A stretch of DNA of 32,680 nucleotides from Tahibacter caeni (GTDB taxonomy: Bacteria > Pseudomonadota > Gammaproteobacteria > Xanthomonadales > Rhodanobacteraceae): NCBI RefSeq assembly GCF_024609805.1, contig NZ_JANFVR010000019.1, positions 1 through 32,680 on the forward strand, written 5' to 3'. A program made the position numbers and the translations under genes. The notes under the pieces are model-generated. The model had not been told where the DNA came from. It did not search any database and saw nothing but the letters and a program-made list of their open reading frames with translations. The first letter of the stretch is position 1; each line of letters begins with the position of its first letter. Below are positions 4,785-10,030 of this stretch, one piece after another.

Positions 4785-4845
4785 AGCGCAGCCTGAGCAG
4801 CGCTCGGCGCATACCGTCGTGGTGGGCGCGGCCCCCGCGCGCACC

Positions 4846-4892
4846 CCGCCCCCCGCCCGCGCCCCCCCCCCCGCCCGCCCCCCCCCCCCCCC
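4846..4892. repeat. C-rich homopolymer tract (C11 and C15 runs)
   Basis: The spacer between the convergent MFS and EF-hand genes contains near-pure cytosine, including uninterrupted runs at 4862-4872 (11 C) and 4878-4892 (15 C). It is outside both coding sequences. Such runs slip during replication and during sequencing, so the exact length may be wrong or variable. On the other strand it is a G-run that could fold as a G-quadruplex. No hairpin-plus-T terminator is seen here. Confidence 0.9.
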
Positions 4893-4902
4893 ACGCCGGC
4901 GG

Positions 4903-5196
4903 TCAGCGCTGCTGCTTCTTGATCTTCTTGTGCTCGTCCCATTCCTTGCGCGAGACCTTGCCGTCGCCGTCGACGTCGACCTCGGCGAAGGTCACGTTCT
5001 CGGCCGTGGTGCCGCGGGCGAACTCGTCCTTGTCGAGCATGCCGTTGCCGTCGCTGTCGATCTGGTCGAATACCGGAACGTGTTCGCCGGTGGGCGTCTT
5101 GTCGCGGCTGAGCTTGTCGTCGTTGGCGACGCCGAGCAGCGGCGCCGCGGCGAACGCGAAGGCCAGGGCGGCGGCGAGTGCGGAATTCTTGGACAT
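4903..5196 (-). CDS. Small exported EF-hand calcium-binding protein
   Basis: The 97-residue protein starts at ATG 5196, behind AGGAGA 6-7 bases upstream. Longer in-frame starts lack a good ribosome site and would bury the signal peptide. Residues 1-25 form a Sec signal peptide (MSKNSALAAALAFAFAAAPL, probable cut after GVA). Two complete 12-residue EF-hand loops follow: 47-58 (Asp47, Asp49, Asn51, Asp55, Glu58) and 74-85 (Asp74, Asp76, Asp78, Ser82, Glu85). The tail is Lys/Gln-rich. The family includes small periplasmic calcium-binding proteins of proteobacteria with no defined enzymatic role; calcium buffering or sensing is inferred. It is divergent from the BON-domain gene and convergent with the exporter gene. 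Confidence 0.9.
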   Translation of the reverse strand: MSKNSALAAALAFAFAAAPLLGVANDDKLSRDKTPTGEHVPVFDQIDSDGNGMLDKDEFARGTTAENVTFAEVDVDGDGKVSRKEWDEHKKIKKQQR

Positions 5197-5549
5197 GGGT
5201 TTCTCCTGATGGCCGGAACGGCAGGACCACGGAGCAGGTTGCATGCCGGCGCCGCGCCCGATGCAAGTGCATGTCTTTGCGTGGCCGGCGACGGCATTTC
5301 GCGCGAGCGCCGCGCGCGGGCATGCAAGCTGCAAGGACGCGCCGCCGCCGCGTCACCGATGAAATTGCTACAGCGGCGCGGAAGGACTTTCCGTGCGCGA
5401 CGGACCGTCCGCGGCGCGCGGCGGATGCCAATCTCCGTCCCAGGCGGTCGCGAACGAATGTATAAAATTACCTCGGCGTGGCACATGTCTTGCTCCTCCA
5501 CAGCGGCCGCCGCGTCGGCGGCTGCACAAGAAATTTCGAGGAGAGACCC
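5197..5549. other. Divergent intergenic region with ATGCAAG repeats
   Basis: The 353-bp spacer between the two divergent genes has no convincing coding frame. It carries a short dyad, ATGCA-AG-TGCAT (5261-5272), and ATGCAAG recurs at 5322-5328, with a related TTGCATGC near 5239. These are possible regulator sites shared by both genes. The BON-proximal part holds an A/T-rich box at 5461-5468. Confidence 0.4.
5459..5468 (+). promoter_or_regulatory. Candidate -10 region for the BON-domain gene
   Basis: TGTATAAAAT stands out in otherwise very GC-rich DNA about 80 bases before the ATG at 5550. No good TTGACA-like box lies 16-18 bases upstream, so if it is a promoter it would depend on the extended -10 or on a stress sigma factor. 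BON proteins such as OsmY are typically RpoS-controlled, which is consistent but not proof. Confidence 0.4.
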
Positions 5550-6794
5550 ATGCAACGATACGATCGTGAGCGCGAGCCGCGCCAACAGCGCAACCGCGAC
5601 GTCGAGCGCTCCCAGTCCGCACGCAGCGACTACCGCAATGACGACCGCGAAGACGGAATGCGCGCCGGCTACGGCGAGCAGGACGACTGGCGCGAGTCCT
5701 ATACCGGCTACGACCAGGACGAAGGCTACGGCTCCGACTTCGCCCGCCAGCGCTACGGCCGCGGCTACGAGCCGCAGTTCGGCAGTCAGGACTATCAGGA
5801 CGAACGCGGCGGTTCGCGCGATACCTACGGCGCCGGCCGGCCCTACGGCAGCGCGAGCGGCTATCACGGCAATCCCGACTACGCCGGCCGCCGGCAGTCG
5901 CTGTACGGCGAAGGCTCGCGCGGCGGCGACGACCGCCGTTACGGGCCGACCGTCGCGCCGACCCATTACCCGCAGCAGCGCGGCTATGGCTCGCAGCAGT
6001 CCGGCTACGGCCGCGAAGGCGGCCGCTACGGTCAGGGCGGCCGGTCCGCGTGGCGCGACTACGACGACAGCGGTCAGGGCTATATCGGCGCGTACGGCAG
6101 CGACCTCGGCTACGGCAGCCGCGGCGGCCGCTACGAATACGGCCGCGGCGGCGAGGACCGCTTCTACGGCGACTACGCCGAGGGCGGCCGCCAGTACGGC
6201 TACGGCAATCGCATGGCGCAGGGCCGCGGCGGCTGGTACGGCGACGAGCGCGAAGACGCCTACGGCCGCAACCACGGCCAGGGCAACTATGGCCAGGGCG
6301 GCTACGGCCAAGACAATTATGGCCAGGGCGGCCAGGACTACCGCGGCCAGCAGGGCTACGGCGAAGGCTACGGCATGAGCGGCTACGGACAGGGCCGCAG
6401 CGAAAGCCAGGGCCAGAGCCTGCGCGGTCGCGGTCCGAAGAACTACATGCGTTCCGACGAACGCATCAAGGAAGACATCAATGAGCGGCTGACCGACGAT
6501 CCGATGATCGACGCCGGCGACATCAACGTCGAGGTCAAGAACGGCACGGTCACGTTGACCGGCAGCGTCGACTCGCGCCGCCTCAAGCATCGCGCCGAAG
6601 ACATCGCCGACGACTGCGGCGGCGTCAAGGGCGTGGAGAACCGGCTCACCGTGCGCAACGCAGGTACGGGCCAGAACCTCTCGGGCGCGTCGGGCGGCGG
6701 CAGCCTCAGCGCCGGCGCGCGCAGCGGCACCGGCAGCTCGGGCACGAGCGGCAGCACCGGCGGCACGATGGACGAGGCACAGAAGAAGCACTGA
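5550..6794 (+). CDS. Gly/Tyr/Arg/Gln-rich low-complexity protein with C-terminal BON domain
   Basis: The 414-residue protein starts at ATG 5550 behind CGAGGAGAG; an in-frame ATG at 5478 has no ribosome site. Residues 1 to about 300 are low complexity: hydrophilic, with repeated YG, GYG, YGQGG, RGG and GRGG units and many Asp/Glu-Arg pairs. A 30-bp imperfect tandem repeat (6284-6302 and 6314-6332) encodes NYGQGG. Residues about 303-370 form a BON domain: RSDERIKEDINERLTDDP, then NVEVKNGTVTLTGSV, then VKGVENRLTV. A Ser/Gly-rich tail follows. No signal peptide is seen, so a cytoplasmic location is likely, whereas OsmY-type BON proteins are periplasmic. BON domains bind membranes or other macromolecules, usually in envelope or osmotic stress. 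Homologues with a shorter Arg/Gly-rich lead-in before the same RSDERI start are common; the very long YGQ/RGG region is the unusual part. Confidence 0.9.
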   Translation: MQRYDREREPRQQRNRDVERSQSARSDYRNDDREDGMRAGYGEQDDWRESYTGYDQDEGYGSDFARQRYGRGYEPQFGSQDYQDERGGSRDTYGAGRPYGSASGYHGNPDYAGRRQSLYGEGSRGGDDRRYGPTVAPTHYPQQRGYGSQQSGYGREGGRYGQGGRSAWRDYDDSGQGYIGAYGSDLGYGSRGGRYEYGRGGEDRFYGDYAEGGRQYGYGNRMAQGRGGWYGDEREDAYGRNHGQGNYGQGGYGQDNYGQGGQDYRGQQGYGEGYGMSGYGQGRSESQGQSLRGRGPKNYMRSDERIKEDINERLTDDPMIDAGDINVEVKNGTVTLTGSVDSRRLKHRAEDIADDCGGVKGVENRLTVRNAGTGQNLSGASGGGSLSAGARSGTGSSGTSGSTGGTMDEAQKKH

Positions 6795-6900: not shown

Positions 6901-7449
6901 TCAACAGCGGCGCAGTTCCGCGACGAGCGCGACGAGCCGGTCGGCCTGCCGCGCGCAGAGCATGGCGAACCGGCTCGCCTCGGCCACCTCGCCGCGTTCG
7001 AGCAGGATCTGCACGACACCGGCCTGCAGGCTCAGCGCATGCGCGGCGTTGTTGAGTTCGTGCAACGGCTGCGGCGTGACGACGACGCCGCGCAGCGCCT
7101 GCGGCGCGCCGGCGTGCACCGCGAGCAGCAAGGCCAGCGGTTCGGCGAGCAGGACGACCGTGCGCCGGCTCGCGCGCCAGCGCACGGCCGCACAGCGCAA
7201 CTCGAGCTGGCCCAGCGATCGCCCACCATAGACCAGCGGCACCCGCCGCCGGGCGATCGATGCCGGACAGGGACGGCCCCACACGACTTCGCAACCGATC
7301 GTCGGCAGCGTACAGCGCACGGCCGTTCCGCCGCAGGCCGTGCTGAGCAGGCGCACCGTGCGCAGCGCCGCATGACGCGGGTCGGCCAGCGCACGCAGGC
7401 TGCGCAGCGGCGCCAGACGCAGCGCCGCCAGACGCTCAGGCGGCCGCAT
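6901..7449 (-). CDS. GAF/DHp-like protein with histidine H-box but no kinase ATPase domain
   Basis: The 182-residue protein starts at ATG 7449, overlapping the end of the upstream sigma-54 activator by 14 bases, so the two are probably translationally coupled. Residues about 65-115 (PLVYGGRSLGQLEL, then VVLLAEPLALLLAVHAG) resemble the last strands and helix of a GAF domain. Residues 129-180 look like a histidine-kinase dimerisation helix pair: LHELNNAAHALSLQAG with the conserved His at 130, then a second helix ending in RLVALVAELRR. The protein stops there: the N, G1 and G2 boxes of the ATPase domain are missing, and no frame in the 106 bp before the BON gene restores them. It may be a phosphotransfer or scaffold partner of the NtrC-type regulator, or a kinase remnant. 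Its intact coding frame and coupling argue against simple decay. Confidence 0.7.
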   Translation of the reverse strand: MRPPERLAALRLAPLRSLRALADPRHAALRTVRLLSTACGGTAVRCTLPTIGCEVVWGRPCPASIARRRVPLVYGGRSLGQLELRCAAVRWRASRRTVVLLAEPLALLLAVHAGAPQALRGVVVTPQPLHELNNAAHALSLQAGVVQILLERGEVAEASRFAMLCARQADRLVALVAELRRC

Positions 7450-8776
7450 CGTCGCTGTAGCGGGCGAGATGGTTGTAGACGGTCTTGATGCTGACGCCGA
7501 GCGCTTCGGCCGTGCGTACCTTGTCGCCGCCGAAATGGGCGAGCGTGCGCAGCAGCATCTCGCGCTGCACGAGATCCAGGCGCGTGCCGACCGGAAAGAC
7601 CAGGCAGCCGTCGAGCTCGTCGCGACGGCGGAACGCGTCGTGCAGCGGCGGCAGCTCGACGTCGGCGCCTTCGCTGAGGATGTAGGCGCGGTGCACGACG
7701 TTGCGCAGCTCGCGCACATTGCCGGGCCAGGAATAGCCGGCGATAGCCTTCCAGGTCCCGGCCGCGAAACGCTTGTCGACGCCGTAGCGCCGGTTCAGCC
7801 GTTCGAGCAGCGATTCGCCGAGCAGCTCCAGGTCGCCGCCGCGCAGGCGCAGCGGCGGCAGCTGCAGCACGAACTCGCCGAGCCGGAAGAACAGATCCTC
7901 GCGCAGCCGCCCGCCGGCCATCGCATCGTCCGGATGGCGGTTGGTCGCGGCGACGACGCGCACGTCGAGTTCGCGCTCGGTATCGCCGCCGACGCGGATC
8001 AACGTGCGCGTCTCGAGCACGCGCAGCAGATGTGCCTGCAGCGGCGCCGGCATCTCGGTGATCTCGTCGAGCAGGATGGTGCCGCCCTGGGCCTGCTCGA
8101 AATAGCCGCGGTGCTGGCGCACGGCGCCGGTGAAGCTGCCGCGCTCGTGGCCGAACAGATGGCTCGCGAGCAGCTCCGGCGCGACCGCGCCGCAGTTGAC
8201 CGCGACGAACGGACCGCCGCGGCCGCTGAGATCGTGGATCGCGCGCGCCGCGAGCTCCTTCCCGGTGCCGCTCTCGCCGACGAGCAGCACGTTGGCCGCG
8301 GTCGGCGCGATGCGGCGGATCTGCCGGTAGACGCTCTGCATGGCCGCCGACGTGCCGACGAAATCGCCACAGGGCGCGTCGTCGCCGGCGCCCGGCTGCT
8401 GCGCCGACCAATGCGCCTGGGCCTGCTCGAGCAGCGCATCGAAACGCGCGCGTTCGAGCGGCTTGATCAGGTAGTCGCTGACCGGCAGACGCACGGCGCG
8501 CGCGGCGCTCGCGATCGATGCATTGCCGGTGACCACGGCCACCGGACTGTGCAGATGCCCGATCTCCTCGACGAGATCGAAGCCCGAGCCGTCCGGCAGG
8601 TGCAAATCGACGAGCACCAGATCGAAGCGCCGCCGGCGCATCGCGGCGCGGGCGGCGCCGAGGTTAGGCGCGGCGCTCGACTCGAAGTTGTGCAGCTGAG
8701 CCAATGTCACGGCCGCTTCGACGAATCCTTCGTCGTCGTCGACCACGAGCAGGCTGGGCCGGCTTGATTCGTCCAT
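7436..8776 (-). CDS. NtrC-family sigma-54-dependent response regulator
   Basis: The 446-residue protein starts at ATG 8776 behind AAGGAA. The receiver domain (1-120) has acidic residues in VVDDDEGF, phospho-acceptor Asp57 in LVLVDLHLPDG and Lys105. The AAA+ domain (138-370) has Walker A GESGTGKE (167-174), the sigma-54 contact loop as GSFTGA (213-218, usual GAFTGA), Walker B TILLDE and VAATNRHPDDA. The C-terminal Fis-type helix-turn-helix reads GGDKVRTAEALGVSIKTVYN. Such proteins hydrolyse ATP to open sigma-54 promoters after phosphorylation. No complete kinase is next to it; the GAF/DHp-like gene overlaps its 3' end. Its targets are not evident here, since no clear -24/-12 GG/GC element was found. 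Confidence 0.94.
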   Translation of the reverse strand: MDESSRPSLLVVDDDEGFVEAAVTLAQLHNFESSAAPNLGAARAAMRRRRFDLVLVDLHLPDGSGFDLVEEIGHLHSPVAVVTGNASIASAARAVRLPVSDYLIKPLERARFDALLEQAQAHWSAQQPGAGDDAPCGDFVGTSAAMQSVYRQIRRIAPTAANVLLVGESGTGKELAARAIHDLSGRGGPFVAVNCGAVAPELLASHLFGHERGSFTGAVRQHRGYFEQAQGGTILLDEITEMPAPLQAHLLRVLETRTLIRVGGDTERELDVRVVAATNRHPDDAMAGGRLREDLFFRLGEFVLQLPPLRLRGGDLELLGESLLERLNRRYGVDKRFAAGTWKAIAGYSWPGNVRELRNVVHRAYILSEGADVELPPLHDAFRRRDELDGCLVFPVGTRLDLVQREMLLRTLAHFGGDKVRTAEALGVSIKTVYNHLARYSDDAAA

Positions 8777-8806
8777 CTGCCGTAGTTCCTTTTTTCAAGA
8801 CGGCAG
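8777..8806 (-). promoter_or_regulatory. Hairpin enclosing the regulator's ribosome site
   Basis: CTGCCGT (8777-8783) and ACGGCAG (8800-8806) are exact complements around a 16-base loop. On the minus-strand mRNA the loop carries AAAAAAGGAACT, the ribosome site of the sigma-54 activator, and the stem ends directly at its ATG. The structure could limit translation initiation. It could also be chance, as the stem is only 7 bp. Confidence 0.4.
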
Positions 8807-8835
8807 TGTCAGCCAGCAGCAATTAAGCCGGCGTC

Positions 8836-8852
8836 AAACGTACGCTACGTTT
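8836..8852. promoter_or_regulatory. Perfect dyad AAACGTA-CGC-TACGTTT
   Basis: A 7-bp perfect inverted repeat with a 3-base spacer lies between the dipeptidase stop and the sigma-54 activator start, in a locally A/T-rich patch. It could be an operator for a dimeric regulator of the activator gene, or a small hairpin ending the dipeptidase transcript. No run of T follows on the minus strand beyond the stem itself, which favours an operator slightly. Confidence 0.4.
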
Positions 8853-8884
8853 TATGCGCGAAGCGGACTGGGCCGCGGGACGGT

Positions 8885-10030
8885 TCAGCCCCAGACCTCG
8901 CTCATGACACGCGCGAAATTGCCGCCGAGGATCTTCGCGATGCGCGCGTCGGAATGGCCGCGCCTGGCGAGCATCGCCGCGAGCACCTCGAAGCGGTTGG
9001 CCATGTTCAGATCCGGAATGAAGATGTAGAGATCGGCCGGACGCCCTTTCTCGAAGATGCCGTCCTCGACCATGCCCTTCATGAATTCGCGGTTGTCCCG
9101 TTCGAACTCCGGCGTGCGCTCGGCCGGCGCGATGCCGCCGTCGGTGCCGATGCCGACGTGGTCCTCGCCGCAGACGTCGATCGCATGCTCGATGTGGCGG
9201 ATCACGTCGATCGCCATCGGCTGGGTGTCGGTGCGCAGGTAAGGCCAGAAGATGATGCCGGCCACGCCGCCGCGCTCGGCCATCGCGCGCAGTTCGCTGT
9301 CGTGCACGTTGCGCGGCAGGTCGGCGAGCGCGCGGCAGCCCGTGTGGCTGATCAGCATCGGTTTTCTGCAGGCCGCGATGCCTTCGCTGATCGTGCGCGC
9401 GGCGCCGTGCGCGAGATCGACGACCAGGCGGTTTTCCTCCAGCGCCTCGACCATCTGGTGGCCGTAGTTGCTGAGGCCCGCGTTGCCGGGCTCCATGCAG
9501 CCGTCGCCGACGAGGTTGCGCCGGTTGTGGGTCAGCTGCACGACGCGCAGGCCGAGTTCGCGGAACTCCTTGATGCGCGCGACGTCCTCGCCGAGCGCCT
9601 CGGTGCCCTGGAAGCCGAGGATCACGCCGGTGCGCGGGCCGCGGCGCTCGAGGCTGAGGTCGGCCGCGCTGCGCACGATGTACAGATGCTCCGGGTGCTC
9701 CGCGGCGATCGCGTTCCAGCGCTGCACCGTCTGCTTGGCGCGCGCATAGGCCGCGTCGTCGAGCCAGAAGCGTCCCTGCGGCGCGGCCGTCGTCAGCACG
9801 GCGCCGAGACCGCAGGCGCGCTGCACAGCGAGCTCCTTGCGAACGGCCTCGGCGTCTTCGCTGTAGATGAAGCCGAAGCTCGCCGCGCCGTCGATCGCGA
9901 AGGTCTTCGCATACGGCGCCCAGCGCAGCGCCGCTTCGGACTTGCCGCTTTTCGCGGCCGCCGCGACGCCGAACGCCGCCGACAGTCCCGCCACGCCTGC
10001 TCCGATCAACACTTCACGTCGGGTGACCAT
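8885..10030 (-). CDS. Exported M19 membrane-dipeptidase homologue lacking metal ligands
   Basis: The 381-residue protein starts at ATG 10030 behind GGAG. The N-terminus MVTRREVLIGAGVAGLSAAF is a twin-arginine-like signal peptide. The fold is that of M19 (renal-type) dipeptidases: VILGF, VVDLAHGAARTISE (His208), LISHTGCRAL (His229), LPRNVHDSEL (Arg240) and HVGIGTDGG (Asp297) all align. However, the usual DGHND ligand pair near the start is replaced by DGAAS (positions 47-51), and the bridging Glu of the EG motif is Gln141 (FQGTEAL). These residues normally hold the two zinc ions, so standard dipeptidase activity is doubtful. It may bind one metal, act on another substrate, or have lost activity. 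It is a single gene, upstream of and co-directional with the sigma-54 activator. Confidence 0.85.
   Translation of the reverse strand: MVTRREVLIGAGVAGLSAAFGVAAAAKSGKSEAALRWAPYAKTFAIDGAASFGFIYSEDAEAVRKELAVQRACGLGAVLTTAAPQGRFWLDDAAYARAKQTVQRWNAIAAEHPEHLYIVRSAADLSLERRGPRTGVILGFQGTEALGEDVARIKEFRELGLRVVQLTHNRRNLVGDGCMEPGNAGLSNYGHQMVEALEENRLVVDLAHGAARTISEGIAACRKPMLISHTGCRALADLPRNVHDSELRAMAERGGVAGIIFWPYLRTDTQPMAIDVIRHIEHAIDVCGEDHVGIGTDGGIAPAERTPEFERDNREFMKGMVEDGIFEKGRPADLYIFIPDLNMANRFEVLAAMLARRGHSDARIAKILGGNFARVMSEVWG

Follow-up and report, generated by a model that had tools for sequence, protein, structure and literature searches.

What is a bacterium doing with a protein that joins a tyrosine- and arginine-rich low-complexity region to a BON domain, and when does it make it? 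Eukaryotic Tyr-Arg low-complexity proteins of the FUS/EWS type follow a design of stickers and spacers, and few bacterial proteins are known to share the Tyr/Arg grammar established for FUS. One such protein, here called LC-BON for its low-complexity (LC) and BON parts, is encoded on the plus strand of the window, the 32,680-nucleotide stretch of the Tahibacter caeni genome (labelled G000) that we analysed. A sequence-only reading of this DNA had proposed a cytoplasmic condensate former with a membrane-binding end. A search of the open-licence literature found no studies on the LC-BON protein class. The features on which our argument draws are:

5379-5393, plus strand: perfect dyad CGGAA-N5-TTCCG, a candidate activator site that begins 100 nt ahead of the sigma-54 site
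5479-5494, plus strand: sigma-54 (-24/-12) promoter match TGGCACATGTCTTGCT, perfect by pattern, 55 nt before the ATG
5538-5545, plus strand: Shine-Dalgarno-like GAGGAGAG, by direct reading; a good ribosome-binding site for the LC-BON gene
5550-6419, plus strand: lysine-free Tyr/Arg/Gly/Gln-rich low-complexity disordered region, residues 1-290 (composition, AlphaFold2)
6274-6332, plus strand: 30-bp tandem repeat inside the low-complexity region, 2.0 copies, 89% match (repeat detection)
6420-6452, plus strand: conserved linker LRGRGPKNYMR, directly before the BON core (family signature RG[RK]GPKGYxRSDER)
6453-6659, plus strand: BON domain, residues 302-370 (Pfam PF04972, AlphaFold2; nearest solved structure OsmY)
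6660-6794, plus strand: Gly/Ser/Thr-rich C-terminal tail and stop codon (sequence, AlphaFold2)
6901-7434, minus strand: open frame downstream of the regulator, start not settled, with an H-box-like stretch LHELNN (our own reading)
7436-8776, minus strand: sigma-54-dependent response regulator with receiver, AAA+ Sigma54_activat and Fis-type HTH domains (Pfam), convergent with the LC-BON gene

Protein layout and low-complexity composition

The LC-BON gene (5550-6794) runs from an ATG at 5550 to a stop at 6792-6794 and encodes 414 residues. We take the frame to be real because it has this start, the Shine-Dalgarno-like GAGGAGAG, a stop, and an ortholog in which it is kept with dN/dS below 1. About 290 low-complexity residues, one BON domain and a Gly/Ser-rich tail make up the product. 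The architecture proposed from sequence alone, a FUS-like region fused to BON across 5550-6480, was right, although its end at 6480 falls inside the BON domain. A Pfam scan returned nothing besides BON, which scored 72.6 bits against PF04972 (cut-off 27) and therefore belongs to that family. In an AlphaFold2 model built on 32 sequences, residues 1-213 and nearly all of 214-283 are coil with pLDDT below 50, whereas the BON domain folds confidently (pLDDT about 96) in the order H-E-E-H-E; residues 1-290 are thus predicted to be disordered, with no predicted fold, in support of the sequence-only reading. No signal peptide was found, in agreement with the sequence-only reading, and no hydrophobic N-terminus: the best 15-mer in the first 60 residues has a Kyte-Doolittle mean of -1.76.

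Upstream of the gene, and divergent from it, 4903-5226 on the minus strand encodes a small protein with two EF hands (Pfam) that is retained at the locus of the closest ortholog and is probably exported from an inner start. A C-rich imperfect tandem tract of period 18 (4832-4897) separates it from an MFS gene.

Residues 1-288 comprise 24.3% Gly, 13.5% Arg, 13.2% Tyr, 9.7% Gln and 0% Lys, with 24 YG, 10 GYG, 6 GQG and 5 RGG motifs. The sequence-only description in terms of YG, GYG and RGG units and charged pairs survives in part. YG, GYG, YGQG and GQG exceed composition-preserving shuffles (24 YG was reached by 0 of 2000), but RGG (p 0.07), RG (p 0.77) and charged pairs (p 0.08) are not clearly above them. 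The 44 aromatics are spaced more evenly than under random placement (fraction 0.0015). The sequence features of phase-separating Tyr/Arg proteins, namely disorder, aromatic and arginine stickers and even spacing, are thus all found. The region would work like those of FUS and EWS, with Tyr/Arg stickers, Gly/Gln/Ser spacers, even aromatics and YGQ and RGG units. It is not homologous to them, and where they carry RNA-binding domains the window protein has a BON domain and mixed D/E/R charges.

Eukaryotic FUS-type proteins of similar composition bind RNA, and the 5 RGG motifs, 40 Arg and many Tyr of LC-BON could similarly bind RNA or the nucleoid in a stress ribonucleoprotein body. We consider this improbable: the net charge of the region is neutral (NCPR -0.02), RG motifs do not exceed shuffles, and BON is the only Pfam domain.

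The closest ortholog, a 368-residue protein of the same genus (G002/L049), shows what is kept in the low-complexity region. It lacks residues 187-216, 241-246 and 258-260 of the window protein (bases 6108-6197, 6270-6287 and 6321-6329), as well as smaller blocks and 10 residues of the tail; 4+1 residues are found only in the ortholog. The larger gaps (30, 6 and 3 residues) lie within the repeat stretch or ahead of it, so that stretch changes length, as had been anticipated; the 30-bp repeat itself is present, but begins at 6274 rather than at the 6284 first assigned. Retention between the two proteins is 28/31 for Tyr, 30/34 for Arg, 3/3 for Trp, 2/2 for Phe and 8/19 for Ser. Across all 245 aligned residues of this one ortholog pair, Tyr, Phe, Trp and Arg together are retained at 63 of 70 positions, against 121 of 175 for the others (p 0.0005). 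Estimates of dN/dS are 0.41 for the low-complexity region and 0.20 for BON by Nei-Gojobori (NG86), and 0.31 and 0.07 by YN00.

The family and its BON domain

The window protein, with its signature linker, BON domain and disordered N-terminal region, belongs to a family that we traced by scanning one genome per species for the module RG[RK]GPKGYxRSDER plus BON. At least 562 matches were confirmed and the best 80 loci kept. By record title and our own sorting, these 80 of at least 562 comprise 50 alphaproteobacterial, 12 gammaproteobacterial, 13 Bacteroidota and 5 other loci, the last from Acidobacteriota, a Bdellovibrio and an unplaced proteobacterial assembly; the layout is therefore common to Gammaproteobacteria, Alphaproteobacteria, Bacteroidota and Acidobacteriota. 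It is nonetheless scattered rather than universal: 16 of 299 genomes drawn from the phylum match at E<=1e-12, and 9 of these exceed 79 bits, covering most of the module.

Among the window protein and the best 80 of at least 562, the N-terminal region is not a short linker but spans 95-456 residues (median 204.5) in 76 of 81 proteins, all of them above a threshold of 80 residues, as the sequence-only reading required. The other five (L067, L075, L089, L103 and L109), which with starts as called have fewer than 11 residues ahead of the linker, were excluded from composition counts. Export of LC-BON was rejected: the window protein has no signal peptide, and of the same 81 sequences only L104 has a strongly hydrophobic 12-mer at its N-terminus, which follows from a doubtful start codon.

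Arginine is preferred over lysine in low-complexity parts of all these lengths. In the 76 members from the best 80 of at least 562, Arg:Lys is 2446:65 in the low-complexity parts and 695:197 in the BON parts. In the 11 Bacteroidota members it is 275:26, against 856:1196 in 52 neighbouring ORFs (p 2e-65), so GC content does not explain the bias. Aromatics are evenly spaced (fraction <=0.05) in 56 of the 76 and less evenly than random in 2. Even spacing is partly a consequence of repeat structure, since a minimum-gap null lowers 56 to 49, and because the members are kin these counts are not independent. Sticker/spacer-like composition is thus retained across phyla, again in line with the sequence-only reading. 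Composition and stickers look selected, judging from these comparisons, with exact sequence and length left to drift.

Could repeat slippage in GC-rich DNA instead have left the region as a functionless by-product? The gaps of 30, 6 and 3 residues in the ortholog and the very variable length among relatives are what such neutral drift would leave. But a dN/dS of 0.41 (NG86), conservation biased towards stickers, and a preference for Arg in Bacteroidota whose neighbouring ORFs favour Lys make this the least credible of the explanations weighed here.

A database entry, SWFGD/BON (NF033157 plus PF04972), describes proteins with the same plan: a YG/RG/DR-rich region, the RG[RK]GPKGYxRSDER linker, BON and an S/G/T tail. 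Layouts of this type like the window's occur in Alphaproteobacteria, Bacteroidota and Acidobacteriota among the matches listed. By pattern, an SWFGD-like motif precedes the linker in 47 of 76 members (best 80 of at least 562) and is absent from all 13 gammaproteobacterial sequences, the window's included; AlphaFold2 models it in L068 as a helix of moderate confidence. NF033157 (cut-off 35 bits) gave no match at E<=1 to the window protein, and 39.3 and 49.4 bits for two tested relatives. The name exists in databases, and our literature search on it found no related paper.

Several members depart from the common plan. A relative (L193, G005:C1:4434463-4436301; also L015) has a 597-residue open frame with many YGQGYGQGMGGQYGGQSHLG-like units, an extreme expansion of the low-complexity region. 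Two Microvirga proteins (L081 and L095) start with what reads as a CBS-pair-like stretch, and pairing of BON with CBS is on record (PMC7806268, excerpt). In L046, L047, L048, L054 and L085 an extra N-terminal helix-like segment (for example ELKAAIGELRQLATQLADASREWWQNRR) precedes the low-complexity region, seemingly from an upstream GTG start in L047 and L054. Elsewhere, excerpts describe an AlgU-linked, stress-linked BON gene, Avin_43670 (PMC10651043), and two BON genes that are up in a Rhizobium pssA mutant (PMC9860679).

The closest solved structure to the window BON is OsmY (profile match to 8rjx, E 4.3e-18; fold E 6.6e-6); DolP (7a2d) and, by fold, Kbp (E 0.04) also match. OsmY is, in the available part of PMC7806268, likewise a stress-induced BON protein, but it is a periplasmic protein that has a signal sequence and two BON domains and lacks a low-complexity region, whereas LC-BON has a single BON and no signal peptide. 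Accordingly the OsmY equivalog PRK10568 gives 40.4 bits against a cut-off of 174, with one BON and no hydrophobic N-terminus. Kbp (YgaU), osmotically induced according to the same excerpt, resembles LC-BON in having one BON and no signal sequence. It differs as a K+-binding BON-LysM protein; LC-BON lacks LysM and scores 21.7 bits against the Kbp equivalog cut-off of 134. As potassium is held by backbone carbonyls in Kbp (PMC9481166, excerpt), ion binding cannot be judged from the sequence. E. coli osmY and kbp mutants survive osmotic stress as well as their parent (PMC7806268, excerpt), so a stress-induced BON protein need not be required for survival.

The membrane-binding end had been suggested on the strength of the BON domain, and DolP offers the relevant precedent. 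In the available part of PMC7806268, DolP (YraP), an outer-membrane lipoprotein sharing the BON fold, binds anionic phospholipid through BON2 with W127 as key residue; its non-binding BON1 has an acidic helix alpha-1, and lipid binding is not a general property of BON domains. A condensate former tethered to membranes through BON would fit this precedent and the PLD-type and LPG-synthase-like genes near a paralog in G004. The window BON, however, has R305 at the W127 position, an Arg shared by every sequence in alignments of 11 and of 32, T315 at the L137 position, and an acidic alpha-1 (SDERIKEDINERLTDD) like that of BON1. Its nearest fold, OsmY, is likewise without the Trp. With an invariant Arg for W127 and an acidic alpha-1, we dropped membrane anchoring by BON as the leading idea and regard it as very unlikely.

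Promoters, the neighbouring regulator and gene context

Nitrogen, motility and secretion are the usual topics of sigma-54 in Xanthomonadales. In the window, the sigma-54 promoter and the neighbouring sigma-54 regulator, both absent from the sequence-only reading, say most about LC-BON function. The perfect match at 5479-5494 is the only site of at least 11/12 within the window. In the window's 5.46-Mb genome the strict pattern TGGCAYRNNNNTTGCW occurs 8 times and its reversed control 0 times. Alongside this GG-N10-GC match, the genome encodes a single RpoN and sigma-54 activators, as sigma-54 dependence demands.

The association extends through the genus. We searched promoters in six of the seven other genomes, leaving out G003 (87% complete, with no LC-BON match), and all 10 confident LC-BON genes (E<=1e-19) have a perfect site upstream. 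In eight the site lies directly in front, at 52-77 nt (the window, G002 C12, G005 twice, G006 three times and G007), and in two it lies in front of an intervening DUF4142 gene (G002 C11 and G004). A second low-complexity gene of the window's genome (G000 C202) shares this DUF4142 arrangement; its BON is not seen because the contig end cuts the gene. The seven genomes hold 3-9 perfect sites each, 45 in all, and G001, which has no confident LC-BON gene, has 3, with 0 near an LC-BON gene. As the reversed control yields 1-7 sites per genome in the six relatives (20 in total against 37; 7 against 3 in G001), many lone sites there may be chance. A looser pattern, TGGCAYNNNNNTTGC, gives 31 sites against 6 reversed. 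Of the 12 gammaproteobacterial loci in the best 80 of at least 562, 8 carry a site scoring 11/12 or better, compared with 8 in 726 background windows; this count is not independent of the genus count because L042, L049 and L061 are G006 C78, G002 C12 and G006 C2. Four gammaproteobacterial loci lack one (L043, L058, L064 and L069), as do all 68 loci outside the class.

Downstream genes were inspected for 38 of the 45 strict sites, with Pfam on examples. Perfect sites precede otsA in four genomes (G000, G002, G004 and G006; Glyco_transf_20 by Pfam for G000), DUF4142 genes in three (G000, G002 and G004) and, in two, small hydrophilic peptides of 52 and 55 residues. Six genomes have one before a conserved HlyD-type membrane-fusion protein (424-425 residues, starting MIRDTSAQD), at L125, L163, L166, L168, L170 and L182 in G000, G002, G004, G007, G001 and G005, respectively. 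Other sites precede a hemerythrin, a glycine-zipper protein, a GspH/pilin-type protein, by our own reading an NRPS-like gene, and further genes whose meaning is not clear. That efflux, pilin-like and NRPS genes have the same promoter class counts against reading these sites as a stress regulon.

Alphaproteobacterial members carry a different signal. An EcfG-type motif, GGAAC-N15-18-GTT at 25-130 nt before the start, which we take to be the EcfG consensus, occurs in 28 of the 50 alphaproteobacterial members among the best 80 of at least 562, against 19 of 248 same-locus control genes (p 7e-14), and is absent from the other 22. A motif-free check on the same 50 returned GGAAC as the most enriched 5-mer (32 of 50 against 6.1 expected). 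Elsewhere among the 80 the motif does not occur: none of the 12 gammaproteobacterial, 13 Bacteroidota or 5 other loci has it, and the 13 Bacteroidota loci have no sigma-54 site either. Two lineages, Xanthomonadales and Alphaproteobacteria, thus appear to control one and the same architecture through alternative sigma factors that are unrelated to each other. Control of LC-BON by alternative sigma factors is well supported and, in our judgement, highly probable, and the promoter signals ahead of many LC-BON genes suggest that the protein is made in a stress response.

We found no regulator-binding site upstream of the sigma-54 sites by dyad and k-mer searches. The dyad at 5379-5393 is kept at equal distance in the G002 ortholog only. 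Allowing up to 1 mismatch and spacers of 3-7, dyads accompany 2 of 35 sigma-54 sites (the window and its ortholog) against 23 of 432 background windows, so we rejected it as a general activator site and treat it as a lead only. The k-mer search returned CATTCCGC/ATTCCG, weak after allowing for k-mer number.

The regulator at 7436-8776 is one of only seven strong sigma-54 activators (bEBPs) in the window's genome. Homologs at 46-92% identity occur in 7 of the 12 gammaproteobacterial LC-BON loci among the best 80 of at least 562, are missing from 5, and occur at that level in 0 of the 68 others, two Bacteroidota loci having a 31% match. In the genus, L189, L190, L196 and L197 have one, and L192, L193, L194 and L195 do not. 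The regulators adjacent to LC-BON in Lysobacter telluris and G004 both match the window regulator best (377 against 237 bits for the next, and 385 against 243), and we infer that it is the candidate activator of the window LC-BON gene. It was not filed under PrsR (PEP-CTERM) because its best NCBIfam match, TIGR02915, scores 324.8 bits, below the cut-off of 502.6.

The frame downstream of the regulator (6901-7434), which matches nothing in Pfam or NCBIfam, is a possible partial kinase partner. Short frames of 72-78 residues also adjoin a sigma-54 regulator in L196 (4077-4313; no Pfam match) and L046 (1868-2086), and in the three frames we read H-box-like motifs HELNN, HALNN or HDLRNELN; the short frames are possibly stand-alone phosphotransfer partners.

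Candidate stress genes lie near LC-BON genes within the genus. By Pfam on picked proteins, L189 has a trehalose phosphatase, an endonuclease/exonuclease/phosphatase and a BON-MscS channel; L198 a KGG repeat protein; L196 Ku and an SDR; L190 Ku; and L197 PLD-type, LPG-synthase-like and DUF4142 proteins. The L189 channel (8217-9515), whose N-terminal BON scores 27.0 bits, at the cut-off, stands beside otsB in a stretch that also includes LC-BON and otsA. These neighbours point to osmotic or drying stress. The argument for a stress-gene island rests on the genus, because eight query proteins found few such neighbours in the best 80 of at least 562 loci: KGG in L061 and L069, PLD and LPG types in L061, SDR in L046, L052, L098 and L104 (28% identity), and no match for Ku, DUF4142, OtsA or OtsB. 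An excerpt of PMC10782981, which frames Xanthomonadales sigma-54 in terms of nitrogen, motility and secretion, reports that rpoN and trehalose genes are both up at 16 h in a Xanthomonas tssM mutant, a correlation only.

An alternative role is that of a hydrophilin or LEA-like shield whose low-complexity half stays soluble and disperse, a flexible filler that protects proteins or holds water with no separate phase. The whole protein is 22% Gly with a mean Kyte-Doolittle value of -1.52, its promoter class is shared with otsA, KGG repeat proteins are encoded near LC-BON genes, and the low-complexity half is loose in length and sequence among relatives. Simple disordered filler, however, is usually rich in Lys and Glu, and such a filler would have no need of 13% Tyr, the near-exclusion of Lys, even aromatics, or conserved aromatic and Arg residues. 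A disperse shield is a possibility to be taken seriously, if on balance a doubtful one.

A proposed role

We propose that LC-BON is a cytoplasmic osmotic- or desiccation-stress protein whose Tyr/Arg region self-assembles, a reading to which we give an even chance; self-assembly taken by itself is plausible to the same degree. Osmotic or drying stress would trigger a sigma-54 activator, for which the neighbouring response regulator is the likeliest candidate; this activator may in turn switch on, from the matched promoters, a small regulon made up of LC-BON, otsA, DUF4142 proteins and very small hydrophilic peptides. The low-complexity half, with evenly spaced Tyr/Arg stickers, Gly/Gln/Ser spacers and no Lys, would then form a dense phase or gel-like matrix with a presumably protective role, and BON would serve as an OsmY-like interaction head rather than a membrane anchor. 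In Alphaproteobacteria, a like protein would be made under the general-stress sigma factor EcfG.

More broadly, and more tentatively, LC-BON proteins may represent unstudied FUS-like condensate- or gel-forming stress proteins in several phyla, each under its lineage's alternative sigma factor, that with trehalose and hydrophilins build a cytoplasmic protective matrix. They would then be a separately evolved counterpart of eukaryotic Tyr/Arg condensates and part of a Xanthomonadales sigma-54 regulon for osmotic or desiccation stress. We put this wider picture somewhat short of even. The analysis outlines a possible sigma-54 stress regulon in Xanthomonadales that comprises LC-BON, otsA, DUF4142 proteins and small hydrophilic peptides. 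With a FUS-like grammar, members in several phyla, and promoter evidence of stress control in two large groups, the LC-BON family makes the existence of FUS-like stress condensates in bacteria a directly testable question.
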